Assembly (NCBI GenBank): GCA_948902155.1
Contig: CAQVQZ010000042.1
Coordinates: 1-12,835, forward strand
Source of the DNA: an uncultured Oscillibacter sp.
GTDB taxonomy: Bacteria; Bacillota_A; Clostridia; Oscillospirales; Oscillospiraceae
Length of the DNA stretch: 12,835 nt
Direction: 5' to 3'
In this document: positions 206 through 12,587 of the stretch, piece after piece
How positions within the stretch are numbered: the stretch's first letter is position 1
Layout of the letters: each line of letters opens with the position of its first letter
Position numbers and translations under genes: made by a program
Notes under the pieces: model-generated
Told to the model about the DNA's origin: nothing
Seen by the model: only the letters and a program-made list of their open reading frames with translations
The model's database searches: none

Positions 206-910
206 TTATCTTTTCAGGGCTTCGATTTCTTCCGCGCTCAGCCGCCGCCATTTTCCCGGGGGCAGGGTCCCCAGCTCCAGGGTGTGCTCCCGCACCCGGC
301 GGAGGCGCTCCACCGTCAGGCCGCAGGCGGCGCACATCCGGCGGACCTGGCGATTCTTCCCCTCGTGGATGGTGACGGCCAGCCGGGCCTTTTCCGGTCC
401 CCGGCTCAAAAGCTCCACCCTGGCGGGCCGGATGGCCTCCCCCTCCAGGTCCGTCAACCGGCCCAGGCGCTCCGCCGCGCCCTCCACCGGCCCCCGGACC
501 CAGACGCGATAGGTCTTCTCCGCCTCCCGGCCCGGATGGGTCAGCCGCTGGGCCAGATCGCCGTCGTTGGTCATCAGCAGCAGCCCCTCGGAGTCCAGGT
601 CCAGCCGCCCCACCGGGTAGACCCGGACGCCGCAGTCCCGCACCAGGTCCGCCACCGTCTTCCGGCCCTTCTCGTCGGAGAGGGTGGTCACGTAGCCCCT
701 GGGCTTGTTCAGCAGGAGGCACACCGTCCCGCCCCTGGGGGCCAGGGGCCTGCCGTCCAGGCGGACGTCGTCCCGGTCCGGGTCGGCCTTGTCCCCCAGG
801 GCGGCGGGGATGCCGTTGACCGTCACCCGGCCCGCCTGTATGTACCCCTCCGCCGTCCGCCGGGAGCAGACCCCGGCGGCGGAGAGGAGCTTCTGCAAAC
901 GTTCTTCCAT
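206..910 (-). CDS. rluB: Ribosomal large subunit pseudouridine synthase B family
   Basis: This 234-residue protein should convert a specific uridine of 23S rRNA to pseudouridine in the cytoplasm (the RluB/RsuA branch, by family knowledge). An N-terminal S4 RNA-binding domain covers about residues 1-60 (MEERLQKLLSAAG, then SRR and VTVNG). The catalytic signature GRLDLDSEG lies at 101-109 with the family's catalytic aspartate at D104. Further family blocks follow (LLLMTNDGDLA, then KTYRVWV and EGKNRQVRRM). The ATG at 910 has GGAGGG about 7 bases upstream. It is the last gene of the minus-strand block and follows the dacF terminator, so it may be read through or started separately. The rluB/rluE/rsuA distinction rests on length and on the dacF-like neighbour. 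Confidence 0.88.
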   Translation of the reverse strand: MEERLQKLLSAAGVCSRRTAEGYIQAGRVTVNGIPAALGDKADPDRDDVRLDGRPLAPRGGTVCLLLNKPRGYVTTLSDEKGRKTVADLVRDCGVRVYPVGRLDLDSEGLLLMTNDGDLAQRLTHPGREAEKTYRVWVRGPVEGAAERLGRLTDLEGEAIRPARVELLSRGPEKARLAVTIHEGKNRQVRRMCAACGLTVERLRRVREHTLELGTLPPGKWRRLSAEEIEALKR

Positions 911-941
911 AGAACTCCCTCCTGCGTCGCAAAGAACGGAA

Positions 942-960
942 GGGCCGCCCCCGGCGGCCC
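942..960. repeat. Hairpin in the rluB leader
   Basis: A perfect 8-bp inverted repeat, GGGCCGCC and GGCGGCCC with a 3-base loop, sits about 30 bases upstream of the rluB start. On the minus strand it is followed by CTTCCGTTCTTT, a poor U-tract. It could be a secondary terminator or a leader structure. Confidence 0.4.
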
Positions 961-990
961 CAGCTTCTGCATATCACGAAATCGCCTTCG

Positions 991-1020
991 AAAAATAGGA
1001 CGGCCCGCCGGACGCCGCCC
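991..1020 (-). terminator. Rho-independent terminator of dacF
   Basis: On the minus strand GGGCGGC pairs with GCCGTCC (one G-U pair) around a 9-base loop. TATTTTT follows. The stem begins at the last base of the dacF stop codon. This would end or attenuate transcription before rluB. Confidence 0.65.
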
Positions 1021-2105
1021 TACCGGAAGCTCCGCAGCGTCTTCATGGCGGACTCCGCCTGGAGCGGCACCGTCTCGCCGCAGAGCAGGGCCACCCGGCC
1101 CACCTCCCGCCCGTTCAGCGTGAACACGGCCTGTCCCACCTGGGCCCCCGCCCGCAGGGGAGCGGCCAGCTCCCGGTCCAGGCGGATATCCGTCTCCAGC
1201 GCCTCCCCCTGGGCCAGGGGCCAGGCGAAGCTGTCCGCCGCGATGAGGGACACCGTGTCCCGCATCCCGCCCTTCACCGCCGCCTGGGACAGCGCATGGC
1301 CCAGCTGGGCCGCCCGGCGGGCGGGATACGCGGCATAGCCGTACTCGTAAAGGCTCTGGTGGTCCGCCCAGTCGTTGCCGTCCTGGAGGGTCACCGCCAC
1401 CAGCCGCTGCCCGTTCCGCTCCGCGCAGCTGACCAGCGTCCGGCCCGCCGCGCGGGTGTAGCCGGTCTTCAGACCCACGCAGCCGTCCAGATAGCCCAGC
1501 AGCTTGTTGTGGTTGGTCATGGTCCGCCCGCCGATGCTCACCGTGCGGGTGGAGGCAATGCGCAGCAGCGTCTCATTCTCCACCGCGGCCCGCGCCAGCA
1601 GGGCCATGTCCCTGGCGGTGGAATAGTGGTCCTCATGGTCCAGGCCGTTGGGGTTGGCGAAGGAGGAATGCTCCATGCCCAGGGCCAGGGCGGTGTCGTT
1701 CATCCGCTCCACAAAGCCCTCCACGCTGCCGCCCACGTGCTCCGCCACCGCCACGGCGGCGTCGTTCCCCGAGCAGAGGAGCAGGCCGTAAAGCAGGGTC
1801 TCCAGCGTCAGCTCCTCCCCCTCTTTCAGGTACATGGAGGAGCCCTCGGTATAAGCCGCCTCCCGGCTCACCTTCACCGTGTCCGCCAGGTTCCCGTCCC
1901 GGATGGCCACCAGGGCCGTCAGCAGCTTGGTGGTGCTGGCGATCAGCATCCGGGCGCCGGCGTTCCGCTCATAGAGCACCCGGCCGCTGTCCACGTCCAT
2001 CAAAATCGCGGCGGTGGCCGACGTATCCACCGCCCCCGCCCGGCCGCACAGGAGGCACGCGGCCAGCAGCAGCGCCCCGGCCCCCCGGAGAAATCGTTTT
2101 GGCAA
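1020..2105 (-). CDS. dacF: D-alanyl-D-alanine carboxypeptidase (DacF-like PBP)
   Basis: This 361-residue serine DD-carboxypeptidase (peptidase S11) would trim the terminal D-Ala from peptidoglycan stem peptides outside the membrane. All three active-site motifs are present: S57-T-T-K60, S112-G-N114 and K213-T-G215. An N-terminal signal peptide covers residues 1-25 (positive start, then GALLLAACLLC). The C-terminal third (about 265-350) is the beta-rich PBP5_C region. The start is a TTG: an in-frame TGA lies two codons upstream, and GAGGTGAT sits 5 bases before the TTG. A sigma-G-like promoter lies just upstream, and the gene follows gerW. Both facts favour the sporulation paralogue dacF over a vegetative dacA, but the symbol is an inference from context. 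Confidence 0.88.
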   Translation of the reverse strand: MPKRFLRGAGALLLAACLLCGRAGAVDTSATAAILMDVDSGRVLYERNAGARMLIASTTKLLTALVAIRDGNLADTVKVSREAAYTEGSSMYLKEGEELTLETLLYGLLLCSGNDAAVAVAEHVGGSVEGFVERMNDTALALGMEHSSFANPNGLDHEDHYSTARDMALLARAAVENETLLRIASTRTVSIGGRTMTNHNKLLGYLDGCVGLKTGYTRAAGRTLVSCAERNGQRLVAVTLQDGNDWADHQSLYEYGYAAYPARRAAQLGHALSQAAVKGGMRDTVSLIAADSFAWPLAQGEALETDIRLDRELAAPLRAGAQVGQAVFTLNGREVGRVALLCGETVPLQAESAMKTLRSFR

Positions 2106-2138
2106 ACGTCATCACCTCAACTTGGTCAACAGTGATGA

Positions 2139-2168
2139 TAGTATGCCCAGCGGGCCAAAAAAGTATTT
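2139..2168 (-). promoter_or_regulatory. Putative forespore (sigma-G/F type) promoter of dacF
   Basis: On the minus strand AAATA (plus 2164-2168) and GGCATACTA (2139-2147) are separated by 16 bases. The -10 fits the published sigma-G pattern (GgCATNHTR) exactly and the -35 fits GHATR at four of five bases. It lies about 35 bases upstream of the dacF TTG start. In B. subtilis dacF is a forespore-sigma gene, which agrees. The spacer is one arm of the 2148-2178 palindrome. The match is by eye to a remembered consensus. Confidence 0.5.
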
Positions 2169-2178
2169 TGGCCCGCTG
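2148..2178. repeat. 13-bp perfect palindrome between gerW and dacF
   Basis: CAGCGGGCCAAAA and TTTTGGCCCGCTG form a perfect 13-bp stem around a 5-base loop. On the minus strand no U-tract follows it; the T-run precedes it. It is therefore not a classical terminator of gerW. It occupies the spacer and -35 of the putative dacF promoter, so an operator or insulating role is possible. Confidence 0.6.
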
Positions 2179-2195
2179 AAAAAACCATTTTTCCG

Positions 2196-2600
2196 TTACA
2201 GCGCCTCTTCCGCCTTCTCTGCCTGGCGCTTTTCCAGGAACCGCTCCGCCTTGTCCACCAGATCCGGCACCATGTCCACGATGCGGTCCACTGCGGAGAC
2301 CGGCGGCACCGCCACCGGCAGGACCCGTGTCACACCGTCCTTGATGACCAGGAAGGCCACGGGGTCGATCTTCACCCCCGCGCCGCCGCCTCCGCCGAAC
2401 TGGTGGGGCTGGGCCTTGCCGTAGTCCCCGCCGCCGCTGCCGACGCCGAAGCTCACCTTGGAAATGGGAATCAGGGTCACGCCGTCGGGGGTGTTGATGG
2501 GCTGGCCCACAATGGCGTTGGTGTCCACCATCTCGTGGATTTTGTCCATGGTGGAACGCATCAGCTCGCTGACGCCGCTCTTTTTCTCCAGATTGTCCAT
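2196..2600 (-). CDS. gerW: GerW family sporulation protein (YtfJ)
   Basis: This 134-residue protein belongs to the GerW/YtfJ family. B. subtilis GerW is a spore protein needed for germination with L-alanine; the biochemical role is not established. The N-terminal helix (SELMRSTMDKIHEMVDTNAIVG) is followed by GVTLIPISKVSFGVGSGG. A Gly-rich segment (FGGGGGAGVKIDPVAFLVI, about residues 69-87) is also a family hallmark. The C-terminal helix (about 103-134) is charged. The ATG at 2600 has AGGAAG about 6 bases upstream. It lies 46 bases downstream of the DUF2953 gene, the same partner (ytfI-ytfJ) seen in Bacillus, so co-transcription is likely. Confidence 0.9.
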   Translation of the reverse strand: MDNLEKKSGVSELMRSTMDKIHEMVDTNAIVGQPINTPDGVTLIPISKVSFGVGSGGGDYGKAQPHQFGGGGGAGVKIDPVAFLVIKDGVTRVLPVAVPPVSAVDRIVDMVPDLVDKAERFLEKRQAEKAEEAL

Positions 2601-2646
2601 CTTGCGCTTCCTTTCTTATATATCGTCAAATTCATGTACGCCTGTC

Positions 2647-3318
2647 TCAAGCGGCGGATTCCTGGGGCGCTTCCGCCTTCTCCTGCTCGGCCCGCTTGCA
2701 GCGCTTCCGCCAGCGCAGGAACCACCGCAGCCCCGGAACCGCCGCGCCGAAGCCCATGGCCAGCAGCGTCCCGATTCGGAGGGTGACGCCCGCCTCGCCC
2801 TCCACCGCCGGGGCGGGGGAACCGAAATCCACGCCGATGTGAATCTGAGGGTCCCGAATATCCAGCAGCCGCTCCAGCACCGGCATCCCGCCCCACACGG
2901 CGGCCAGCAGCTTTCCGCAGAGCTCCGCCGAGGAGGCGGGGTCCTCCTGGCCCCCCAGGGTCAGGGAGACGTGCAGCGGTTTGACCTGAATGCCCCGCCA
3001 GGTCCGGCTCAGCGCCCGCTTCAGGGGCGGGAGCAGGGTGCGGAGGGCGTCCTTCCCGTCCTCCAGGGTGAAGGAGAGCTTGCGTTTTGGCTCCTCCTCC
3101 GCTCCTTCGGGCTTGGGTTTTTGGGGCTTTTTCTTCTTTTTCGGCTTCTCCGCCTGGGGCTTTTTGGCCTTCGGCGGCAGGATGTGCAGGCGCAGCAGCC
3201 CTACCCGCGCGTCCAGGCGGAGCGTCTGGCCGTCGTAAGCCGCCCAAACGCCCACCTTCGTCCAGCACAGCAGGGCGATCAGCAGGCAGACCGCCAGCAG
3301 AATCCAAAGCCAGAGCAT
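2647..3318 (-). CDS. DUF2953 membrane-anchored protein (YtfI-like)
   Basis: This 223-residue protein has one N-terminal membrane segment (about residues 2-20, MLWLWILLAVCLLIALLCW). A Lys/Pro/Glu-rich low-complexity linker follows (about 50-80, repeated KPKKKKKPQKPK-type runs). The C-terminal half resembles the DUF2953 family (about 110-185, including LHVSLTLGGQEDPASSAELCG and IHIGVDFGSP). The extreme C-terminus has a second hydrophobic stretch followed by a basic tail. The function is unknown, but members sit next to gerW in many spore formers. The ATG at 3318 has GGAGGGGG shortly upstream, and the gene begins 18 bases after scpB, so it is in the same transcript. Confidence 0.75.
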   Translation of the reverse strand: MLWLWILLAVCLLIALLCWTKVGVWAAYDGQTLRLDARVGLLRLHILPPKAKKPQAEKPKKKKKPQKPKPEGAEEEPKRKLSFTLEDGKDALRTLLPPLKRALSRTWRGIQVKPLHVSLTLGGQEDPASSAELCGKLLAAVWGGMPVLERLLDIRDPQIHIGVDFGSPAPAVEGEAGVTLRIGTLLAMGFGAAVPGLRWFLRWRKRCKRAEQEKAEAPQESAA

Positions 3319-3336
3319 AGGCCCCCTCCTCTCTCG

Positions 3337-3942
3337 TTACTCCGGTTCCTCCTCCTCCGCCTGGGCGGCGACGATCTCGCCGTGCTCCCCCAGGCGCATC
3401 TGGACCTCGTCCTCCAGCTCCAGCGCCTCCGCCGGTTCCGTCAGCTCCGGCAGGTCCTCCAGGCTGTTCAGGTGGAAGGCCCGCAGGAACTGCTTCGTGG
3501 TCCGGTACAGCCGGGGCCGCCCCGGCACCTGCAAGCGCCCGCACTCCTCGATCAGCTCCCGGTTCAGCAGCAGGCTCATGGTGTAGGCGCTGTCCACCCC
3601 GCGAATCTGGTCCACGTAAGCCCGGGTGGTGGGCTGGTAATAGGCGATGATGGTCAGGGCCTCCAGGGCGGGCTGGCTCAGCTTGGCGGGCTTGCGGACC
3701 TCCAGCGCCTGGCGGACGGCGTTCCCGAACTCCGGGGCGGAGCACAGCTGCCAGCTGTCGTCCATCTGGACCAGCCGGATGCCCCGGCGGTCGTAGGCGT
3801 AAAAATCCCGCAGGTCCTGCAAGGCCCGCTCCACCGCCGGGCGGGCCAGCTCCAGCGCCGTGCAGAGGCGCTTGATCTGCACCGGCTCGCCGGAGGCGAA
3901 CAGAATCGCCTCGACGGCGGACTCGATCTCTTTTCTCTCCAT
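3337..3942 (-). CDS. scpB: Segregation and condensation protein B
   Basis: This 201-residue protein is the dimeric winged-helix subunit of the SMC-ScpA-ScpB condensin that compacts and separates newly replicated origins. Family blocks are ESAVEAILFASGEPV at the N-terminus, LSQPALEALTIIAYYQP at about 88-104, the following RAYVDQIRGVDS, and GRPRLYRTTKQFLRAF near 140-160. An acidic tail closes the protein. The reading frame is open to a GTG at 3990, but the ATG at 3942 is chosen: it carries AAGGAGAG about 6 bases upstream and gives the normal family N-terminus. It lies 78 bases downstream of scpA and is co-directional with it. Confidence 0.93.
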   Translation of the reverse strand: MERKEIESAVEAILFASGEPVQIKRLCTALELARPAVERALQDLRDFYAYDRRGIRLVQMDDSWQLCSAPEFGNAVRQALEVRKPAKLSQPALEALTIIAYYQPTTRAYVDQIRGVDSAYTMSLLLNRELIEECGRLQVPGRPRLYRTTKQFLRAFHLNSLEDLPELTEPAEALELEDEVQMRLGEHGEIVAAQAEEEEPE

Positions 3943-4020
3943 AGTCTCTCCTTGACTGCGCAAACTCAGCCGCCGGACGATTCCGACCACTCGGGCCGGT
4001 CTTGCTGCGGCTTCGATCCC

Positions 4021-4812
4021 TCACTCCGACAAGGACGAAAGGTCCTCCGGCAGCTCTCCGATCTGGCGGACGGTGCACTCCGCCTCCGTGCCGGTCAGAT
4101 GCAGCACGTGGGCCCGGCACAGCTCCAGCACCGCCAGGAAGGTGGCCACGATCTCGCTGCGGCTGCGGCTCCCCCGGAAGAGCTGGCGGAAATAGGCCGT
4201 GCCCAGCTCCTTCAGCCGCTCCAGGATATCCAGGGCCTTGCGCTCCACGGGGTAGGGCTCGTGCCGGGCGATGTCCTGGAAGGCCGCCCGGGGGGGCGGC
4301 AGCTTCCGCTCCGCCCGGCTCTGCAGCTCCGCCATGGCCCGGAGCAGGTCCCTGGGATGGTGGTCGTACTCCACCGGCCTGCCCCTGTCCAGGTTCTCGG
4401 GGCCCCGGACGCAGATGGACCGGCCGAACTCCGCCAGGGGGGCCAGCTTCTCCGCCATGGCCTTGACGTAGGCGTAGCTCTCGCCCCGGCGGCGCTCCTC
4501 CAGGGATTGAATCAGGGCCTCCATCTCGCTTTTGGCCTCCTCGTCCTCGATGGAGAGGAGCATCCGGGTCTTCAGATAGACCAAATGGGAGGCCATGGCC
4601 GCGAACTCGCTGGCCACTTCCAGGTCCAGCTGCTGCCGCCGGTCCAGCCAGCTGAGGTATTGGTCGCAGATCAGGGAAATGGAGATGTCCTGAATCTCCA
4701 TCTTGTTTTTGCTCAGCAGAAACAGAATCAGGTCCAAGGGCCCCTCGAAGTCCTGCAGCTCCTCCGAGCGGTCGTGGACCACTTTCTCCAGCTTGAATAC
4801 GGGACTTTCCAA
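4021..4812 (-). CDS. scpA: Segregation and condensation protein A
   Basis: This 263-residue kleisin bridges the SMC heads in the bacterial condensin and binds ScpB. The family signature FEGPLDLILFLL lies at 22-33, and EFAAMASHLVYLKTRMLL at 69-86. A variable acidic/basic middle follows, and the C-terminal winged helix (SRSEIVATFLAVLELCR, about 217-233) contacts the SMC head. The start is a TTG at 4812 preceded at 5 bases by AGGAGG; the first residues (ESPVFKLEKVV) fit the family. A GC-rich hairpin lies just upstream of this ribosome-binding site. Confidence 0.93.
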   Translation of the reverse strand: MESPVFKLEKVVHDRSEELQDFEGPLDLILFLLSKNKMEIQDISISLICDQYLSWLDRRQQLDLEVASEFAAMASHLVYLKTRMLLSIEDEEAKSEMEALIQSLEERRRGESYAYVKAMAEKLAPLAEFGRSICVRGPENLDRGRPVEYDHHPRDLLRAMAELQSRAERKLPPPRAAFQDIARHEPYPVERKALDILERLKELGTAYFRQLFRGSRSRSEIVATFLAVLELCRAHVLHLTGTEAECTVRQIGELPEDLSSLSE

Positions 4813-4823
4813 GAATACCTCCT

Positions 4824-4847
4824 ACCGCCCCGGAACCGCTCCGGGCG
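4824..4847. repeat. Hairpin just upstream of the scpA ribosome-binding site
   Basis: CCGCCCCGGA and TCCGGGCGG pair with one bulged base around a short loop. On the minus strand the structure ends a few bases before TAGGAGG. It has no U-tract and could affect scpA translation or mRNA processing between the protease gene and scpA. Confidence 0.45.
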
Positions 4848-4877
4848 GGTTTGGGATGACGCTGATATATGCGCCGT

Positions 4878-5534
4878 TCAATAGAACAGCTGAAAGAAAA
4901 ACCGATAGACCCCCATGATGGCCCCGCTGATAAAGCCCCCGGTGACGCCCAGATAGGACAGGGCCAGCAGGAGCAGCATCCCATAGCGCTCATAGCGCAT
5001 CAGGCCGAAATACAGCCGGTCCGGCAGGAAGGCCCCCAGGACCTTGGCTCCGTCCAGAGGCGGGATGGGCAGCAGGTTGAACAGGCCCAGGCCGATGGAC
5101 AGGGGCGCCAGGACATAGAGCAGGAAGTCGAACAGCAGCGCCCAGCCGGGGCCGGGGGCGGACACGTTCCGGTAGATCGCCCAGCTGAAAAACACCGCCG
5201 CAAAGGCCAGCGCGAAGTTGGACACCGGCCCCGCCAGGGCGGTGGCCGCCATGCCCTGCTTGGGCCTGCGGAAATAGCGGGGGTCCACCGGCACCGGTTT
5301 CGCCCAGCCGAAGCCCGCCGCCAGCATCATGGCCAATCCCAGCCAGTCAATGTGGCGGAGGGGGTTCAGGCTCAGGCGGTGCTGGTCCCTGGCGGTGGGG
5401 TCCCCCAGGGCGTAAGCCGCCAGCCCGTGGCAGGTCTCGTGGACCGTCAGGCAGAGCAGGACCGCCGCCAGGCGGGTCAGGGTGTCCTCCAGAAACGCCC
5501 AGTCAATGGAACGAACGAGATCGTGAAAGCCCAT
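4878..5534 (-). CDS. Site-2 protease family (M50) membrane metalloprotease
   Basis: This 218-residue polytopic protein is a predicted intramembrane zinc protease. The zinc-binding motif H32-E-T-C-H36 lies in the first hydrophobic segment. AGPVSN is at 101-106, and the second metal-site motif is N153 to D161-G162 in LFNLLPIPPLDG. About five membrane segments are visible. The protein is short and lacks PDZ or CBS domains, so it is the compact YwhC/Rv-type S2P class and not clearly SpoIVFB. The substrate is unknown. The ATG at 5534 has AAGGGGAGG upstream. It is the first gene of the scpAB block, with its own promoter about 50 bases upstream. Confidence 0.85.
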   Translation of the reverse strand: MGFHDLVRSIDWAFLEDTLTRLAAVLLCLTVHETCHGLAAYALGDPTARDQHRLSLNPLRHIDWLGLAMMLAAGFGWAKPVPVDPRYFRRPKQGMAATALAGPVSNFALAFAAVFFSWAIYRNVSAPGPGWALLFDFLLYVLAPLSIGLGLFNLLPIPPLDGAKVLGAFLPDRLYFGLMRYERYGMLLLLALSYLGVTGGFISGAIMGVYRFFFQLFY

Positions 5535-5802: not shown

Positions 5803-6297
5803 CTAAATGTTCTTCTTAATCGTATTGATAGCCCCCTTCTCCAGCCGGGAGACCTGGGCCTGGGAAATGCCCACCTCGGCGGAGACCTCCATCTGGGTCT
5901 TCCCCTCGTAGAACCGGAGGGACAAGATCCGCCGCTCCCGGTCGTCCAGGCGCTTCAGCGCGTCCTTCAGGGCGATGCGGTCCGTCCAGTTCTCGTCGGT
6001 GTTCTGGGTATCCCGGACCTGGTCCATGACGCACAGAGCGTCCCCACCGTCGGAATACACCGGCTCATAGAGGGACACCGGGTCCACGATGGCGTCCATG
6101 GCAAAGACCACATCCTCCCGCGGGATGTCCAGCTCCTTGGCGATCTGCTCCACCGTGGGCTCCCGCTGGGTCTCGGAGATCAGCCGCTCCCGGACCTGGA
6201 GGACCCGGTACGCCGTGTCCCGCATGCTGCGGGAGACCCGGATGGCGCTGTTGTCCCGGAGGTAGCGCCGTATCTCTCCAATAATCATCGGCACTGC
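5803..6297 (-). pseudogene. sigG: C-terminal part of RNA polymerase sigma-G, split gene
   Basis: This is the last 164 or so codons of a sigma-G-like forespore sigma factor. The reading begins AVPMIIGEIRRYLRDN (end of region 2), then IRVSRSMRDTAYRVLQVRERLISE and the phrase DPVSLYEPVYSDGGD (region 3). Region 4 contains GKTQMEVSAEVGISQAQVSRLEKGAI. These match sigma-G better than sigma-F, -E or -K as I remember them. Everything normally N-terminal (about the first 100 residues, including core-binding region 2) is missing. The frame continues only five foreign codons (F Q L R I) to a TGA at 6313-6315. A GTG at 6292-6294 is just an internal valine codon and has no ribosome-binding site. The break lies about 20 bases from the recombinase stop. 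The fragment looks undecayed, so it may be one half of a gene rejoined by excision, or a recent loss. Confidence 0.88.
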
Positions 6298-6317
6298 TAT
6301 CCGAAGTTGAAATCAGT
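6295..6317. other. Candidate attachment junction (element end in sigG)
   Basis: On the minus strand sigG-like codons (GCA GTG CCG ATG) begin at 6297, while the preceding bases (CAACTTCGGATA) do not encode the expected sigma-G residues (a Tyr precedes Ala-Val-Pro in B. subtilis). The recombinase stop is at 6318-6320. Serine recombinases act on short cores, so the crossover probably lies within a few bases of GCAGTG. The partner site is not in the window. Confidence 0.6.
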
Positions 6318-7742
6318 TTATTGTGACCCTGAAAGGCCGAATTTCAGCCGGATGTCGGTATAATCGGCGGAAATCGTCACGCTCTCCACCACCGACGCCA
6401 GCACCACCCGCCGCTCCTGGACGGACATGTAGGGCCACGCGTCCCGGATGCCCTCCAGCCTCTGGCAGGCGCTGAGGGCGGCCTGGGACTTCGCGCCCCT
6501 GGCCTCCTCCTCCGCCATGGCGGCGTTCACCCGGCCGATCTCCTCCCGGGCCTCCCGGATGGCCTCCAGCAGATACTCGTCCCCGCCGTCGCCGTAGAGC
6601 CCGTAGAGGCGGCGGAGCTTGGCCTCCGCCTTCTTCCGCCGCTCCAGGAGCAGCTCCGCCGCGCTGCCGGACTCCAGTGCCTTCCGGGCGTCTGCCAGTT
6701 TTTCCCTCGTCACCGCGAACAGCGCCTGCACCACGCCCTCCTCCACATCCTCGGCGAAGGGAGACGGCCCGTCGCAGTTGGGGTCCCGGACCAGGTAGGG
6801 CTTGCTCCGCTGCTGGGAGTAGCACACCAGCTTATACCCCGCCCTGCCCCATTTCAGATAGCGCATCTTGGACCCGCAGACGCCGCAGCGGCACAGGCCC
6901 GTGAGGAGGTGGCCCGTCTTCGTCACCAGCCGCGCCGCCGAGCGGTCCGCCAGCAGGGCCATGGCCCGGTCGTAGGTGTCCAGGGAGACGATGGGCTGGT
7001 GGAGCCCCCGGTACTCCTCCCCCTTGTAGACGATGTATCCCGCGTTGGCCTTCCGGGTGAGGATGTTGTACACCACCCGCTCGTATTTCAGGTCCAGGCT
7101 GTCCGCAATGGCCTGCATGGACGCCCCGGCCAGATAGCGGTCGTAGATGTGGCGGACGGTCTCCGCCTCCCCGTTGGGCACCAGGATGCCTTGGGCGGGG
7201 TCGTAGTCATAGCCGAAGGGCGTCCGCCCGCCGCCGGGCCAATAGCCCTTCTCCACCCGCTTCTGCATGCCGCCCCGGGTGCGTTCAAAAATATTCTCCC
7301 GCTCCAGCTGGGCGAAGACGGACAGAATGCCCACCATCGCCCGGCCAAAGGCCGTGTCCGTGTTGAAGCTCTCCAGAATGGAGATAAACGCCACGTTCGC
7401 CGGGAGCATCACGTCCTCGATGAGGTGCAGCGTGTCCTTCTGGCTGCGGCTGAGCCGGTCCAGCTTCACCACGATCACGTGGGTGATCTGCCCCGCCTCG
7501 ATGTCCGCGATCAGGCGCTTCATCCCCGGCCGGTCCAGGCTGCTGCCGGAATAGCCGTCGTCCAGGTAGTCCCGGACCTCCCGGACGTTGGAAAAGGTCT
7601 TGGCGTAAGCCTCCAGCTTCTCCTTCTGGACGTCCAGAGAATAGCCCTCGTCCGCCTGCTTGTCCGTGGACACCCGGCGGTACAGGGCCAGGGTGCAGCC
7701 GCCGGGGGCCTCCAGCGGTTTTTGCATGGTCGATCTGCTCAT
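6318..7742 (-). CDS. Serine site-specific recombinase (large serine family)
   Basis: This 474-residue DNA recombinase is predicted to cut both strands through a 5'-phosphoserine link. The resolvase-type catalytic domain spans about residues 17-155: Y21-R-R-V-S25 (catalytic serine), then GYSGSSLDRP and KLDRLSRS at 93-100. The recombinase domain follows (about 165-265, KGYWPGGGRTPFGYDYD onward). A zinc ribbon follows (C284, C286, C289, C307, C323). A helical coiled-coil-like stretch covers about 365-425. The ATG at 7742 has GGGAGG about 4 bases upstream. The size and domain order match the skin-element recombinase SpoIVCA and prophage integrases. It ends about 20 bases from the broken sigG. Its GC content is like its neighbours, so transfer was either old or from a related host. 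Confidence 0.93.
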   Translation of the reverse strand: MSRSTMQKPLEAPGGCTLALYRRVSTDKQADEGYSLDVQKEKLEAYAKTFSNVREVRDYLDDGYSGSSLDRPGMKRLIADIEAGQITHVIVVKLDRLSRSQKDTLHLIEDVMLPANVAFISILESFNTDTAFGRAMVGILSVFAQLERENIFERTRGGMQKRVEKGYWPGGGRTPFGYDYDPAQGILVPNGEAETVRHIYDRYLAGASMQAIADSLDLKYERVVYNILTRKANAGYIVYKGEEYRGLHQPIVSLDTYDRAMALLADRSAARLVTKTGHLLTGLCRCGVCGSKMRYLKWGRAGYKLVCYSQQRSKPYLVRDPNCDGPSPFAEDVEEGVVQALFAVTREKLADARKALESGSAAELLLERRKKAEAKLRRLYGLYGDGGDEYLLEAIREAREEIGRVNAAMAEEEARGAKSQAALSACQRLEGIRDAWPYMSVQERRVVLASVVESVTISADYTDIRLKFGLSGSQ

Positions 7743-7867: not shown

Positions 7868-7896
7868 ATTCTATCATTGCGCCGGCCTGTTTGCAA
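7868..7896 (-). promoter_or_regulatory. Promoter of the recombinase
   Basis: On the minus strand TTGCAA (plus 7891-7896) and TAGAAT (7868-7873) are separated by 17 bases. The elements overlap the end of the 55-codon ORF. The transcript would start near 7861, giving a leader of about 120 bases with two strong hairpins. The pattern is sigma-A-like; I see no sigma-E or sigma-K pattern here. Confidence 0.5.
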
Positions 7897-8041
7897 CCGC
7901 CCCGCCCGGATTCCCAGTCTTTTCCACCCGCTCCGCCACGGTGGCGAAAACGTGGTTCATGGCCGGGGTCCGCACGCCCATGGACCGGAGCTGTTCCGGC
8001 GTGAGCTGGCGTCCCGCCGGGTCAAAATAGCGAAACTGCAT
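7874..8041 (-). CDS. Small hypothetical protein, 55 residues, upstream of recombinase
   Basis: This is a 55-codon ORF starting MQFRYFDPAGRQLTPEQL. It is predicted to be a small, somewhat basic soluble protein: an N-terminal YFDPxG turn, a helical middle (PAMNHVFATVAERVEK, about 26-41) and a Gly/Ala/Pro tail. I do not recognise a named family. The ATG at 8041 has GGGAGG 9 bases upstream, which supports a real start, and no other frame covers this stretch better. It is co-directional with the recombinase, 131 bases upstream of it. Small proteins beside serine recombinases can be directionality factors, but nothing in the sequence proves that here. Confidence 0.6.
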   Translation of the reverse strand: MQFRYFDPAGRQLTPEQLRSMGVRTPAMNHVFATVAERVEKTGNPGGAVANRPAQ

Positions 8042-8052
8042 CGATAACCGCC

Positions 8053-8081
8053 TCCCACGAGAGCATACCCGCTCTGTGGGA
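8053..8081 (-). promoter_or_regulatory. Hairpin overlapping the ribosome-binding site of the 55-residue ORF
   Basis: On the minus strand TCCCACAGAGC pairs with GCTCTCGTGGGA (11 bp, one bulged base) around the loop GGGTAT. The 3' arm ends in GTGGGA and the Shine-Dalgarno GGGAGG begins inside it, so the folded RNA would partly hide the site. The same palindrome could instead be a DNA operator. Confidence 0.5.
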
Positions 8082-8136
8082 ATCTTAAACCAAACGCCGT
8101 CCCAAAGGGTTATCAGCAGCCGGTCCGTATTCGGGC

Positions 8137-8272: not shown

Positions 8273-9013
8273 TCACCACAATTCCAGCGCCGCCTTCACC
8301 ACCGTGCTGACGCCCCCGGCGATGAACACGAACACCACCAGCCGGTCCGCCAGACGGTCGCCGACCCGCCGGTCCAGCTGCGCGCCGACGGCAATGCCCA
8401 GAAACGCGCCGGGCAGCGCCGCCAGGGTCAGCAGAAGGCTCTCCCGCGTGTACATGCCGTTCCAGAGGTAGACCCCGCAGCGGAAGAGGTTTTCCAGCAG
8501 GAACACAAAGCAGAGGTTGCTCCGGAAGCCCTCCCGGTTCTCCGAAACCCGATGAAGGTACGCCAGCACCAGCAGGTTGATGCCGAACAGCCCCGCCGTC
8601 AGCCCGGAGAGGAAGCAGACCACGCTCCGGACCACCGGATTGGGCTTCCGCTTCTTCGCCTTGTCCCGGGTCAGCATCTCCAGGCCGGAGAGGATGATGA
8701 CCACCCCCAGCCCCAGCTTCAAAACGGCGGGCGAGCCGTACCGCAGCAGCAGCGTCCCCGGCACGACGCCCAGCGCCACGAAGGCGCAGACGGGATACAC
8801 CAGCTTCCAGGAGAAAGAGCGGCGGTTCTGCCAGACCATCTTGCAGTTCAGCGCCAGGGACACCGGGCTCAGGCCGGGGGTGATGACCCGGTTGGGCAGC
8901 GCCATGGACAGCAGCGGCCCGGAGATCAGCGGGTCCCCGAAGCCCACCATCCCCTTGCAGACAGACGCCAGCAGCACGCTGGCAAAGCAGTAGGCAAACA
9001 GTTTCCCCGTCAC
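8273..9013 (-). CDS. TauE/SafE family sulfite exporter-like membrane protein
   Basis: This 246-residue polytopic protein belongs to the TauE/SafE (DUF81) family, whose members carry sulfite, sulfoacetate and related small anions or sulfur compounds. About eight hydrophobic segments alternate with basic loops. The N-terminal half contains ASVCKGMVGFGDPLISGPLL (the family's G-G-G-x-G-like entry region) and TPGLSPVSLALNCKMVWQNR. The second half repeats the pattern (VCFLSGLTAGLFGINLLVL; AALPGAFLGIAVGAQLDRRV). The start is a GTG at 9013 with GGAGG upstream; the nearby ATG at 9020 is in another frame. The substrate cannot be read from the sequence. It is divergent from the radical SAM gene. Confidence 0.82.
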   Translation of the reverse strand: MTGKLFAYCFASVLLASVCKGMVGFGDPLISGPLLSMALPNRVITPGLSPVSLALNCKMVWQNRRSFSWKLVYPVCAFVALGVVPGTLLLRYGSPAVLKLGLGVVIILSGLEMLTRDKAKKRKPNPVVRSVVCFLSGLTAGLFGINLLVLAYLHRVSENREGFRSNLCFVFLLENLFRCGVYLWNGMYTRESLLLTLAALPGAFLGIAVGAQLDRRVGDRLADRLVVFVFIAGGVSTVVKAALELW

Positions 9014-9052
9014 GGCGCATCCCCCTCCGCCGCCCGTCTCCCGGCGGCTCTG

Positions 9053-9081
9053 TTGACTTTCTCTCTTTCCAGGACTACAAT
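9053..9081 (+). promoter_or_regulatory. Promoter of the radical SAM gene
   Basis: TTGACT (9053-9058) and TACAAT (9076-9081) are separated by 17 bases. The start point would be near 9088, which excludes the upstream GTG at 9094 as a practical start and supports the ATG at 9112. Confidence 0.7.
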
Positions 9082-9111
9082 CAGAGCAATTACGTGATAT
9101 GGAGCTTCCCT

Positions 9112-9999
9112 ATGGAATACATCGACGCCAAAACCATCGTCACCCGGACCAAGGACCCCAGCTGGTTCGGCACGGAGTACAACATGAACATCTACCGGGG
9201 CTGTTCCCACGGCTGCATCTACTGCGACAGCCGCAGCGACTGCTACCATAACGACGCCTTTGACCAGGTACGGGCCAAGCGGGACGCCCTGCGCATCATC
9301 CGGGACGACCTGGAGCGCAAGGCAAAGACCGGCGTGGTGGGCGTCGGCTCCATGAGCGACCCCTACAACCCCTTCGAGGAAGAGCTGCTGCTCACCCGCC
9401 ATGCCCTGACGCTGCTGGAAGCCTATGGCTTCGGCGTAGCCGTCGCCACCAAAAGCGACCTGATCGTCCGGGACACCGACGTGCTCACGTCCATCAACCG
9501 CACCATGCCCGCCATCTGCAAGCTGACCCTCACCACCTGCGACGACGGTCTGGCCGCCAAGGTGGAGCCCCGCGCCCCCTCCCCCAGCCGCCGCCTGGCG
9601 GCGCTGGAGCGGCTGAGCAAAGCGGGGCTGTTCACCGGCGTTCTGATGATGCCCATCCTCCCCTTTCTGGAGGACACGCCGGAAAACATCCAGGACATCG
9701 TGGACCGGGCGGCGGACGCGGGCGCGCGGTTTATCTACCCCGCCCTCGGCGTGACCTGCCGCTCCGGCCAGCGGGAGTTTTTCTATCAGCAGCTAGAGGC
9801 CCGCTTCCCCGGACAGGGGCTGTCGGAGCAGTACCGCCGCCGGTACGGGTCGCGGTATTCCTGTTCCAGCCCCAGGGCAAAGGCCCTGTGGGAGCTGTTC
9901 CAGGAGCGGTGCCGCCGGCGGGGGCTGCTGTACTCCATGAGCCGCATCACCGCCGCCTCCCGCCGGGGGCACGAGACGGACCAGCTCAGCCTGTTCTGA
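9112..9999 (+). CDS. SPL-family radical SAM protein
   Basis: This 295-residue radical SAM enzyme belongs to the spore-photoproduct-lyase-like (SplB/Rv2578c) family. The [4Fe-4S] cluster motif is C31-S-H-G-C35-I-Y-C38, the CX3CX2C type. The preceding NMNIYRG and following YCDSRSDCYH are family blocks; GSMSDPYNPFEEELLLTR (about 82-99) comes next. The C-terminus ends in DQLSLF. The substrate is not established: some relatives repair spore photoproduct, but most of this broad group are uncharacterised. The ATG at 9112 has GGAG about 7 bases upstream; the frame also opens at a GTG at 9094. The gene converges on the XRE regulator with only 9 bases between the stop codons. Confidence 0.87.
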   Translation: MEYIDAKTIVTRTKDPSWFGTEYNMNIYRGCSHGCIYCDSRSDCYHNDAFDQVRAKRDALRIIRDDLERKAKTGVVGVGSMSDPYNPFEEELLLTRHALTLLEAYGFGVAVATKSDLIVRDTDVLTSINRTMPAICKLTLTTCDDGLAAKVEPRAPSPSRRLAALERLSKAGLFTGVLMMPILPFLEDTPENIQDIVDRAADAGARFIYPALGVTCRSGQREFFYQQLEARFPGQGLSEQYRRRYGSRYSCSSPRAKALWELFQERCRRRGLLYSMSRITAASRRGHETDQLSLF

Positions 10000-10008
10000 C
10001 CCCGAACC

Positions 10009-10644
10009 TCACTTCATCTCTCCCAAAAGGCACTGCCTGTCGTACTCCTCACGCAAAAAGTCCATCACGACGTCCAGAATGTGGATGGGAGAGAGCTGCA
10101 AGGCGCTGCACTTCTCCGCGATCTCCAAGACCTTCCCCCGGTCGCCGCAGAACGGCGCCACCGAGGCCACGTTGACCCACTGGCCATCGCAGTATTCCTT
10201 CGCCATCATGCCGTAGGTGCTCTGCCGGCGGCAGCCGGGCTCCTGGAGGGTCAGAAGGGTGTAGCAATACCGCCCCTCTTCCTCCCGCAGCGCGGCCTGC
10301 CCCGCGGCCTGCAAGTTGAACGCACTCCGCAGGATTTTCAGCGCCTCCTCCCCGATGCGCCGCGCGGAGCCGTCCAGGCAATTGACCTCCAGGGACAGCC
10401 TGTCCAAATACGCGGCGGCAGACGCGTCTCCGGGCCCCTCTCCCATAAACAGCTCCGCCAGAGGGATTTCCAGCCGTTCCGCAATCAGCGCCAGGGTGTC
10501 TACCCTTGGAATCCGCCGCCCTTTCTCATATTCCTCCAAAGAGGAGAGGGAAATTCCGAGTTCTTCGGAAAATTCCGCCATGGTCTTTTCTTTTTTTATC
10601 CGTTCCCGCTTGATTCTCGCCGCAAATATCTCTTGAATGTCCAA
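10009..10644 (-). CDS. XRE-family HTH regulator with C-terminal DUF6514-like domain
   Basis: This 211-residue protein has an N-terminal XRE/Cro-type helix-turn-helix (about residues 8-64): IKRERIKKEKTMAEFSEELGIS followed by SLEEYEKGRRIPRVDTLALIAERLEI. The C-terminal half (about 120-205) contains RYCYTLLTL, YGMMAKEYCDGQWVNVASVAPF and the ending LSPIHILDVVMDFL. That pattern resembles the DUF6514 family of Clostridia, by memory. It could sense a ligand or bring partners to DNA. The start is a TTG at 10644 with AAGGAGG 7 bases upstream. It has its own promoter and is divergent from the SulP gene, which makes that gene and its own promoter the obvious candidate targets. Confidence 0.78.
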   Translation of the reverse strand: MDIQEIFAARIKRERIKKEKTMAEFSEELGISLSSLEEYEKGRRIPRVDTLALIAERLEIPLAELFMGEGPGDASAAAYLDRLSLEVNCLDGSARRIGEEALKILRSAFNLQAAGQAALREEEGRYCYTLLTLQEPGCRRQSTYGMMAKEYCDGQWVNVASVAPFCGDRGKVLEIAEKCSALQLSPIHILDVVMDFLREEYDRQCLLGEMK

Positions 10645-10666
10645 ACGAGCACCTCCTTACCTAATT

Positions 10667-10695
10667 AGCATAAAAAGGCGAAATTTGGAAGTCAA
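10667..10695 (-). promoter_or_regulatory. Promoter of the XRE regulator
   Basis: On the minus strand TTGACT (plus 10690-10695) and TATGCT (10667-10672) are separated by 17 bases, with the start codon at 10644. This stretch of about 300 bases (10645-10943) contains no gene and is the regulatory region of two divergent units. Confidence 0.65.
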
Positions 10696-10727
10696 TACCA
10701 ACTTGTTCTTGTCTTTGCCAACATTCC

Positions 10728-10752
10728 GGCATCCGGAGATCAGCCGGATGCC
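10728..10752. promoter_or_regulatory. Palindrome between two divergent promoters (candidate operator)
   Basis: GGCATCCGG and CCGGATGCC form a perfect 9-bp inverted repeat around a 7-base spacer. It lies 33 bases upstream of the regulator's -35 element. A second, shorter inverted repeat (TTTCCA/TGGAAA) follows at 10761-10777. Either could be a binding site for the XRE regulator. No U-tract follows, so terminators are unlikely. Confidence 0.4.
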
Positions 10753-10885
10753 CGCCGTCCTTTCCAGCCGGTGGAAAGCAACGGTGCTGTTTAGCATAAT
10801 ACCATACGGAGCAAAAGGAAACAATCCCCCTCTTTTCCGAATTCCCAGGGATCCCCACGATTCTTCCGGCCTTTGCAGAAAAGGC

Positions 10886-10914
10886 TTGCCATCCTTCCCG
10901 CCGTCCGGTATCAT
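10886..10914 (+). promoter_or_regulatory. Promoter of the SulP transporter gene
   Basis: TTGCCA (10886-10891) and TATCAT (10909-10914) are separated by 17 bases. The start point would be about 20 bases before the ATG at 10944, leaving just enough room for the ribosome-binding site. Confidence 0.65.
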
Positions 10915-10943
10915 GGAGGAAGATAAGGAAGGAGAGGACTCCC

Positions 10944-12587
10944 ATGAAAGATTTGACCCCCCAGCTTGTGTATTCCCTCAAGCACTATACCCGGAAGGAT
11001 TTTCTTCAGGACCTGACCGCCGGAGTCATCGTAGCCATCATCGCCCTGCCCCTGTCCATCGCCCTGGCCCTGGCCTCCGGCGTGTCCCCGGAGCAGGGGC
11101 TGTACACCGCCATCGCCGCCGGCTTCCTGATCTCCGCCCTAGGCGGCAGCAAGGTGCAGATCGCCGGGCCCACCGCCGCCTTCGCCACCATCGTGGCGGG
11201 CATCGTCGCCCGGAACGGCATGGAGGGCTTAGCCGCCGCCACCATCCTGGCGGGCCTCATGCTGATCCTGATGGGCGTTCTGCGGATGGGCAGCATGATC
11301 AAGTACATCCCCTACACCATCACCACCGGCTTCACCGCCGGAATCGCCGTCACCATCCTCATCGGCCAGCTGAAGGACTTCTTCGGCCTGACCTTCGAAC
11401 ACGCCCCCGTGGAGACCATGGAGAAGCTGGAGGAGGTCATCCGGACCTTCCACACGGCCAACTGGTCCGCCGTGGCTGTGGGCTGTCTGGCCCTGGCGGT
11501 GCTCATCCTCTGGCCGAAGCTGTTCCGGAAAATCCCCGCCTCCCTCATCGCCGTCCTCGTCACGGCGGCGGCGGTGAAGCTCCTCAAGCTGCCGGTGAAC
11601 ACCATCGGCGACCTCTACACCATCTCCAGCGCCCTGCCCAAGCTCACCCTGCCCGCCCTGTCCTACGGCACCGTGGCTGCGGTGCTGCCCGACGCCTTCA
11701 CCATCGCGGTATTAGCGGCCATCGAGTCCCTGCTCTCCGCCGTGGTGGCCGACGAGATGATCGGCGCGCGGCACAACTCCAACATGGAGCTGGTGGCCCA
11801 GGGGGTGGGCAACGCCGCCTCCGCCCTCTTCGGCGGCATCCCCGCTACGGGGGCCATCGCCCGGACCGCCGCCAACATCAAAAACGGCGGCAGGACCCCG
11901 GTGGCCGGCATGGTCCACGCCGTGGTCCTGCTGCTGGTACTGGTGCTGCTCATGCCCTACGCCGCCCTGATTCCCATGCCCTGCATCGCCGCCATTCTGT
12001 TCCAGGTAGCCTACAACATGAGCGGCTGGCGCACCGTGGTAAAAGTGGTCAAACGCTCCCCCAAGAGCGATGTCGCTGTCCTGGTGGTCACCTTCCTGCT
12101 GACGGTGATTTTCGACCTGGTGGTGGCCATCATGGTGGGGCTGTCCCTGGCCTGCCTGCTGTTCATGAAGCGCATGGCCGACGTGGCCGTGGTAAAGGAA
12201 TGGGAATACGTGGAGGACACCGGGGACGATCAGGGCCGTCTGAAGCCGGTCCCCGCCCACGTGATGGTCTACGAGATCAGCGGTCCCATGTTCTTCGGCG
12301 CGGCGGACAAGATTCCCCACATCGAGCGGAACAGCGGACGCTATGTGCTCATCCTCCGGATGCGCTCCGTGCCCGCCATGGACATCACCGCCCTCAACAG
12401 CCTCCAACGTCTCTACGAGGAGTGCCGGGACAAGGGCATCCAGGTGATCTTCTCCCATGTGAACGAACAGCCCATGTCCGTGTTCCGGAAATCCGGCCTG
12501 TACAACCTGGTGGGCGAAGAGCACTTCGCCCCCAACATCGACGCGGCCCTGGCCAAAGCGTCGGAGCTGGAAGCCGCCGTCCGCTGA
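10944..12587 (+). CDS. SulP family inorganic anion transporter with STAS domain
   Basis: This 547-residue inner-membrane SLC26/SulP-family transporter carries sulfate, bicarbonate or a related anion; the substrate is not readable from sequence. The N-terminal helix region (LTAGVIVAIIALPLSIALALASG, about 24-46) and the family signature IAGPTAAFATIVAG (73-86) are clear. The membrane portion runs to about residue 415. FGGIPATGAIARTAANIKNGGRTPVAGMVHA is another SulP hallmark. The C-terminal STAS domain covers about 435-540 (VYEISGPMFFGAADKI through MRSVPAMDITALNSL). The usual DSSG-like phospho-loop reads D-I-T-A here. The ATG at 10944 has AAGGAGAGG upstream. It is monocistronic: own promoter and terminator. 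Confidence 0.9.
   Translation: MKDLTPQLVYSLKHYTRKDFLQDLTAGVIVAIIALPLSIALALASGVSPEQGLYTAIAAGFLISALGGSKVQIAGPTAAFATIVAGIVARNGMEGLAAATILAGLMLILMGVLRMGSMIKYIPYTITTGFTAGIAVTILIGQLKDFFGLTFEHAPVETMEKLEEVIRTFHTANWSAVAVGCLALAVLILWPKLFRKIPASLIAVLVTAAAVKLLKLPVNTIGDLYTISSALPKLTLPALSYGTVAAVLPDAFTIAVLAAIESLLSAVVADEMIGARHNSNMELVAQGVGNAASALFGGIPATGAIARTAANIKNGGRTPVAGMVHAVVLLLVLVLLMPYAALIPMPCIAAILFQVAYNMSGWRTVVKVVKRSPKSDVAVLVVTFLLTVIFDLVVAIMVGLSLACLLFMKRMADVAVVKEWEYVEDTGDDQGRLKPVPAHVMVYEISGPMFFGAADKIPHIERNSGRYVLILRMRSVPAMDITALNSLQRLYEECRDKGIQVIFSHVNEQPMSVFRKSGLYNLVGEEHFAPNIDAALAKASELEAAVR

Follow-up and report, generated by a model that had tools for sequence, protein, structure and literature searches.

The split locus

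The window, i.e. the whole 12,835-nucleotide stretch of DNA analysed here, carries the following features:

206..5534, minus strand: M50 protease, scpA, scpB, DUF2953, ytfJ, dacF and rluB, host genes found 3' of intact sigG in close relatives
5803..6297, minus strand: sigG C-half, open, SigG residues 94-256 (sigma regions 3 and 4), without a ribosome site of its own
6268..6313, minus strand: attR-like junction at the start of the SigG C-half, with arms compared with those of genome G466
6268-6289: attB right arm
6290-6291: putative crossover dinucleotide CC, within a Pro codon
6292-6313: attP left arm
6318..7742, minus strand: large serine recombinase, 474 aa, complete
7874..8041, minus strand: 55-aa small gene 5' of the recombinase, with a strong ribosome site, candidate recombination directionality factor (predicted function)
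8062..8090, minus strand: promoter-like GTTTA-N15-GGGTATGCT, similar to the sigG promoter and at the same position in G466
8273..12587, strand unspecified: TauE, radical SAM, XRE/DUF6514 and SulP genes, beyond the recombinase as seen from sigG

Along the minus strand the order is therefore promoter-like stretch, small gene, recombinase, attachment-site junction, sigG C-half, then the host genes from the M50 protease to rluB (DUF2953 and rluB are names that we presume for these genes). A sequence-only reading of this DNA had pointed to an undecayed C-terminal sigG frame beside a complete recombinase, and this description holds. The frame 5806-6297 aligns to the SigG model TIGR02850 from model position 91 to the end with 276 bits, the cut-off for the full gene being 457 bits. 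The product of 6318-7742 has Resolvase, Recombinase and Zn-ribbon domains and matches the phrog_95 integrase; its domains and length are those of large serine recombinases (Resolvase, Recombinase and zinc ribbon, about 450-600 aa). The recombinase stop and the sigG frame are separated by 20 bp. GTG and ATG codons occur near the start of the C-half, yet without a ribosome site. The N-half is absent from the window: tblastn with full SigG and four N-halves matched only residues 93-256, with a single further match at E 0.057. From its sequence, the window is the C-side (attR) of a recombinase-split sigG, of which only the C-half is visible in the window itself.

Of the genes on the far side of the recombinase, TauE, radical SAM and SulP have their matches in relatives on contigs other than that of sigG, and these contigs differ from one another. 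The far-side genes of G466 are likewise matched on different contigs in relatives.

Comparison with intact relatives

The nearest named relatives of the window are metagenome assemblies labelled Oscillibacter. Six genomes (G436, G410, G419, G447, G437 and G443), which their similarity leads us to take as congeners of the window, carry a full sigG with a C-half 96-99% identical to that of the window, and the genes that come after it are those of the window, in unchanged order. A window-type recombinase was found in one of 86 genomes of the genus of G436, namely G466, where it is 88% identical. The DNA of G466 and of the window is 87% identical across the C-half and recombinase, and 80% across most of the downstream block. 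The sigG N-half of G466 lies on a contig other than that of its C-half. The DNA 5' of this N-half matches the region 5' of intact sigG (72-85% identity by piece, gapped), and the match stops exactly at the split. Since the N-side and the C-side of G466 both match the intact locus up to the split, a single intact locus is represented in G466 by two separate places, parted at the same base. The comparison with uninterrupted relatives called for by the sequence-only reading thus places the break to the base; the FSTYA that it expected at the end of the N-half is FSTYG in G466, the sole carrier relative.

Five full-length SigG proteins (P0121-P0125) have a C-half 98-99% identical to that of the window, and may be intact relatives rather than the joined form of the window. 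Four others (P0126, P0130, P0133 and P0242) combine a C-half 97-98% identical to that of the query with a much more diverged N-half; these are either assembly chimeras or real recombinants.

Distribution of the split

The distribution was surveyed in a family draw of 400 genomes, with recombinase carriers defined at E<=1e-120 and sigG searched with full SigG at E<=1e-56. Eighteen of the 400 carry the recombinase (47-67% identical to that of the window), and in 15 of them a sigG C-half begins within about 320 bp after it. For the other three, the recombinase of G196 faces the N-half, the C-half of G119 is 3 kb off, and G368, where no sigG half was found, was left out of the split count. None of the 18 has a full sigG, their full-length matches (at most 40% identical) being taken as other sigma factors. 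A second complete sigG, which would have meant a dead remnant, was therefore found neither in these carriers nor in G466.

A sigG-like match is present in 325 of the 400 genomes, and the split fraction was counted among these 325, the 75 without such a match lying outside it. Seventeen genomes had half-level or odd sigG scores. Eight are split at the same att-site codon, with the N-half on another contig in seven; five of the eight have a recombinase only 31-46% identical to that of the window. The others were not retained as carriers: G008, G138, G275, G114, G143 and G146 have contig-edge or otherwise partial sigG matches, and G188, G313 and G367 have a full sigG. Altogether 25 of the 325 sigG-bearing genomes are split at the same Pro codon, with several recombinase lineages, which confirms that the break seen in the window is real. 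The N-half was found in 12 of the 18 carriers, in seven of the eight further ones and in G466.

In an order-level draw, a recombinase relative (E<=1e-90) occurs in 29 of 394 genomes, nine of these carriers having already been counted in the family draw; 21 of the 29 adjoin a sigG half (19 C, 2 N). The remaining eight relatives lie away from sigG (L272, L274, L276, L277, L280, L281, L282 and L284). A neighbour gene of 412-413 aa is common to six of them, all but L276 and L281, which suggests that the recombinase family has another target.

A phage or plasmid origin of the window recombinase was considered and not retained. A scan of viral_contigs matched five stretches, none encoding a relative; phage records gave matches below 60% identity, none covering 80% of the query; and the only match in plasmid DNA was the sigG of Pusillibacter. 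The replicon concerned (L153, NZ_AP023421.1, 504 kb), filed as a Pusillibacter faecalis plasmid, carries sigG, rpsB, tsf, scpA and holA and for this reason looks chromosome-like.

Attachment site

Arms were taken to the left of the C-half and to the right of the N-half, and set around the CC of the invariant Pro codon over 22 positions. These attP arms are palindromic in all 20 genomes with both halves, at 12 to 21 of 22 positions (mean 15.45). Arms paired between clades have a mean of 10.39 (n=314), and none of 20,000 permutations was as high as the observed pairing (p<5e-5). The other arms of the same 20 genomes score 7-13 (attB), 2-8 (attL) and 5-9 (attR). The left arm of the window and the N-side right arm of G466 are complementary at 19 of 22 positions. 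Half-sites with inverted repeats were thus seen at both junctions in 20 genomes and, for the window, on the C-side. The palindrome is what would be expected of an attP after recombination of attP with attB had given attL on the N-side and attR on the C-side. The CC itself is not palindromic, so that the halves would be joinable only in the correct order.

Arrangement of the two halves

In five clade B genomes the halves are in direct orientation about 6.4 kb apart. The insert holds genes for an iron alcohol dehydrogenase, an aldehyde ferredoxin oxidoreductase and ThiS- and ThiF-like proteins (domains identified in G029 and G239). This metabolic cassette was recognized by domains in L112 and L113 and by frames only in L109, L110 and L114. 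In G119 the halves are 25 kb apart, with Cas3, Cas7 and a MobA/VirD2-type relaxase between them (L121, L122); a repeat-rich stretch of the same insert resembles a CRISPR array (candidate). The halves of G196 are 6.7 kb apart, with the recombinase on the N side. A discrete element in direct orientation is therefore present between the halves in the five clade B genomes, G119 and G196, and not in G278. In G278 the N-half, its neighbour of GntR/aminotransferase type and the recombinase have been turned round as one segment bounded by the two att sites, and the next outward gene has kept its position, which indicates a site-specific inversion. Twelve genomes, G466 among them, have the two halves on different contigs; they are at least 188 kb apart in G180 and at least 166 kb in G230. 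Rejoining halves so often far apart would need a large rearrangement. An element between the halves, as the sequence-only reading had supposed, was thus found in some genomes only.

In clade A, the block formed by the recombinase and the C-half is conserved between species together with its far side, and the DNA beyond the N-half (9-10 kb seen) is different in each of four genomes. The two G047 contigs (L198, L199) extend beyond the split ends by 99 and 107 nt, a place where an assembler might stop if alternative junctions coexisted. The N-half was absent from the parts searched of six other genomes: 1.428-1.808 and 2.158-2.358 Mb of the 4.0 Mb single-contig chromosome of G781, 60 kb of G776, and 60, 40, 20 and 20 kb of G628, G691, G761 and G682.

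GC skew, read in the sense of sigG, has one sign on all sides in the window and G466, clade A, clade B (where G125 and G399 count with their N sides alone), G196, G391 and G265. Between the N and C sides the signs are weakly different in G011 and G181, mixed in G119 and different in G278. Apart from the weak exceptions G011, G181 and G119, the skew is for the most part compatible with direct sites or with an inversion between replichores.

Conservation of the halves

All 26 C-halves and all 19 N-halves analysed are open frames. The six clade B genomes have dN/dS values of 0.007-0.079 (C-halves) and 0-0.053 (N-halves). Clade A values lie mostly at 0.01-0.10; two pairs reach 0.18, and saturation affects many of the synonymous distances. 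Purifying selection on the halves is thus strong in these two clades, the best sampled, and less so in three smaller groups (dN/dS 0.1-0.45).

Translation signals are distributed unequally. A strong ribosome site precedes 20 of 20 N-halves (median -11.45 kcal/mol), whereas the C-halves have a median of -2.4 kcal/mol (best -6.5; 6 of 27 at -5 or lower), close to the background (median -2.1, lowest 5% at -7.1 kcal/mol). Signals on each half, as a bipartite factor would have, are therefore not found. The first residue of the C-half moreover varies with the attP arm (V, I, M or R). The sigG promoter is kept in 19 of 19 N-halves, and 23 of the 26 split genomes have matches to the SASP family. Neither a factor made of two polypeptides nor a dead gene predicts open, selected halves together with a ribosome site on the N-half only and a kept promoter; the idea of a dead remnant is weakened by the same observations.

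The recombinase and sigG trees agree on the main groups and in pairing G239 with G029 and G270 with G230, and disagree on the placement of G399 and of G010 and G339. The window and G466 nest among intact relatives in the sigG tree. Six changes of state are needed on the tree, three of them forced by well supported branches, which implies several origins of the split; these are single-gene trees with many weak forks, in which the intact sequences are those nearest to the query.

A candidate control operon

A small gene with a good ribosome site was picked in 17 of 17 regions 5' of the recombinase, chance small frames being uncontrolled in this count. It lies about 270 bp from the recombinase in G011 and G181. 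The versions of the window, G466 and G196 are homologous to that of clade A (hhalign 93.7%). Homology between the clade B and clade A versions was undetected, and none of the five small genes tried against PHROGs gave a match. In position and length the small gene is like CD1234, the directionality factor of C. difficile skin; it probably belongs to the system and is a candidate directionality factor.

A promoter weight matrix was trained solely on intact sigG promoters, of which 38 of 41 have a seed match, mostly GTATA-N14/15-GGNNATACT, a type that we take to be recognized by sigma-F. At p<=0.05, a sigG-type promoter precedes 15 of 17 operons of small gene and recombinase versus 7 of 108 control genes, the 17 operons falling into five clades, so that the matches are not independent. 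Operon scores are 4.7-12, with two at 0 or below, compared to 13.8-23.2 for the N-halves and 12.1 for the best control. No match was obtained in G119 and G181. The match in the window is weak alone (p 0.042), that of G466 at the same position having p 0.004. The first narrow promoter patterns found nothing, and one relaxed pattern matched G196 and G307; the wider pattern was set after a conserved block had been noticed in clade A, and the matrix and controls came later. The resemblance to the sigG promoter points to expression in the forespore instead of the mother cell.

A second split spore gene

As a by-product of one search, a SASP gene (PF00269), which we take to encode a spore-core protein, was found to be split in a manner similar to sigG in three genomes of one genus, that of the window (G466, G410 and G436). 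The loci are:

L260: 2448-4313
L261: 5148-5237
L262: 1465-3270
L263: about 10008-10091
L258: 357-452
L259: 2570-2662

A different large serine recombinase (556-558 aa) stands directly 5' of the SASP C-part in G410 and G436, whose sigG is intact. The SASP arms are palindromic around GA at 16-17 of 22 positions, compared to a mean of 6-7 and a maximum of 14 for shuffles. The final SASP codons after VKKM differ between L264 (G447), L258 and L260 on the one hand and L262 on the other, as if a further insertion site were present there.

Relation to known systems

PMC10747680 names sigK, spsM, spoVFB, gerE and yabG as split sporulation genes and states that elements of this kind can be found in several species or strains. 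These genes act in the mother cell, where loss of DNA costs nothing. Rejoining by excision is described in PMC10747680, PMC5595907 and PMC4191935 for yabG of C. botulinum (element yin), spoVFB (vfbin), spsM (SPbeta) and gerE (gin). According to PMC5025042, the recombinase of C. difficile skin adjoins the 3' part of sigK; it can integrate by itself, and its excision reaction depends on a second protein. This directionality factor, CD1234, has 53 aa (PMC10747680) and is required for excision but not integration (PMC5025042 and PMC10747680).

The sigG locus resembles skin in B. subtilis and C. difficile in that the gene of a sporulation sigma factor is split by a large serine recombinase; as in C. 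difficile, the recombinase stands beside the 3' part, the att half-sites form an inverted repeat and a small gene is present, here a candidate directionality factor (compare PMC5025042). In the relatives, as in a skin-type split, a sporulation gene lies in two open, conserved halves parted at one point. However, sigK is used in the mother cell, which leaves no DNA to the next generation, whereas sigG is used in the forespore, whose DNA is passed on. Skin is moreover a prophage-like element between the halves, while sigG is often without a small element, with halves on separate contigs and in one case inverted. The same holds for yin, vfbin, SPbeta and gin: these also split sporulation genes by a recombinase, but they are excised inserts in mother-cell genes, and sigG encodes a forespore regulator whose halves may be far apart or inverted.

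The observation made from the window alone is correct, and the window is not an isolated remnant. The claim of a skin-like split that can be rejoined is borne out in relatives as far as the attL and attR half-sites, the attP palindrome and the open halves under selection are concerned; a recombinase-split, probably re-joinable sigG is thus well supported by them. A search in titles and starts of abstracts of the open-licence literature gave no recombinase-split sigG or SASP; subscription papers and preprints were outside its scope and absence is unproven.

Interpretation

The split at one exact spot beside a recombinase suggests that the gene is rejoined only at sporulation, in the cell that founds the next generation. 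In the reading that we favour, with a probability of roughly 0.7, sigG is kept split in growth by a dedicated recombinase, rejoined in the forespore and split again after germination. By default, during growth, the recombinase alone would recombine attP with attB and leave sigG split. In the forespore, sigma-F would switch on the operon of small gene and recombinase together with the promoter of the N-half. The small gene would act as directionality factor, and recombination between attL and attR, at the CC within the Pro codon, would restore a continuous sigG. After germination the directionality factor would be gone and the recombinase alone would split sigG again. A split in the inherited chromosome would require such a reversal step. 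The objection that excision in the forespore would be heritable, raised by the sequence-only reading, stands; self-resetting recombination would answer it, as re-splitting after germination means that nothing is lost from the germline.

Joined sigG was found in none of the 18 family carriers nor in G466; carrier assemblies contain split forms only, an assembly representing the majority form. A search with a clade B C-half gave 32 protein clusters at >=93% identity, from 209 contigs. Thirty of these clusters (207 contigs) contain the C-half alone, in some cases perhaps because the contig ends there, and the N-half identity of the two full-length clusters is only 83/93 and 63/70. The lack of a joined clade B form fits a rare, developmentally limited state, and also a gene that is never rejoined. 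The latter would apply if sigG were a mere attB for mobile elements, whose insertion ends sporulation and leaves the halves as remnants. The 25-kb insert of G119, with cas3, cas7 and a relaxase, has the look of a mobile element; 8 of 29 recombinase relatives are away from sigG; and no carrier besides the window and G466 is known in the genus presumed for them (1 of 86 genomes searched), so that the split may be recent there. We nevertheless judge this explanation unlikely, given 26 C-halves and 19 N-halves that are open, strong purifying selection in two clades, recombinase lineages that track the main host groups, a sigG promoter and ribosome site that are kept, and SASP matches in 23 of 26 genomes.

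Segments flipped between inverted att sites are the principle of serine-recombinase inversion switches, and G278, where a site-specific inversion carries the N-half and recombinase, shares this feature. Random recombination could maintain joined and split subpopulations as a heritable on/off phase variation, without developmental control, and the G047 contigs, which stop 99 and 107 nt beyond the split ends, might have been ended by an assembler at a branching junction. Every carrier genome looked at is however split rather than mixed, the coding sequence is cut mid-way, unlike in inversion switches, and the operon promoters are similar to that of sigG, i.e. developmental-like; this makes phase variation improbable. 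In B. subtilis, SigO-RsoA is a bipartite sigma factor with its sigma regions in separate genes, and the sigG halves could similarly be two separate polypeptides. Both show conservation, some genomes have them far apart, the position of the C-half after the recombinase in most carriers would allow co-transcription, and the ribosome-site energy is -5 or lower for 6 of 27 C-halves. As a set, though, the C-halves have no ribosome site (median -2.4, compared to -11.45 for the N-halves), their first residue changes with the attP arm, and both breaks are att sites whose arms stay palindromic. A bipartite factor is thus very improbable.

Going beyond developmental rejoining of sigG, a more tentative extension, to which we give somewhat less than even odds, is that each sporulation rearranges the forespore chromosome to assemble sigG, that the recombinase reverses this after germination, and that SASP is gated likewise. 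The rearrangement, spanning as much as hundreds of kb, would then be an inversion or a fission that yields two circles. With SASP under a second, similar recombinase in one genus, the spore programme would be gated by several germline rearrangements.

If true, a split sigG would mean programmed recombination in an inherited chromosome, which would be a principle new to bacterial development. Annotation could make carriers look deficient in sigG, and with attB/attP junctions the sporulation of uncultured gut bacteria could be tested for directly in their DNA.
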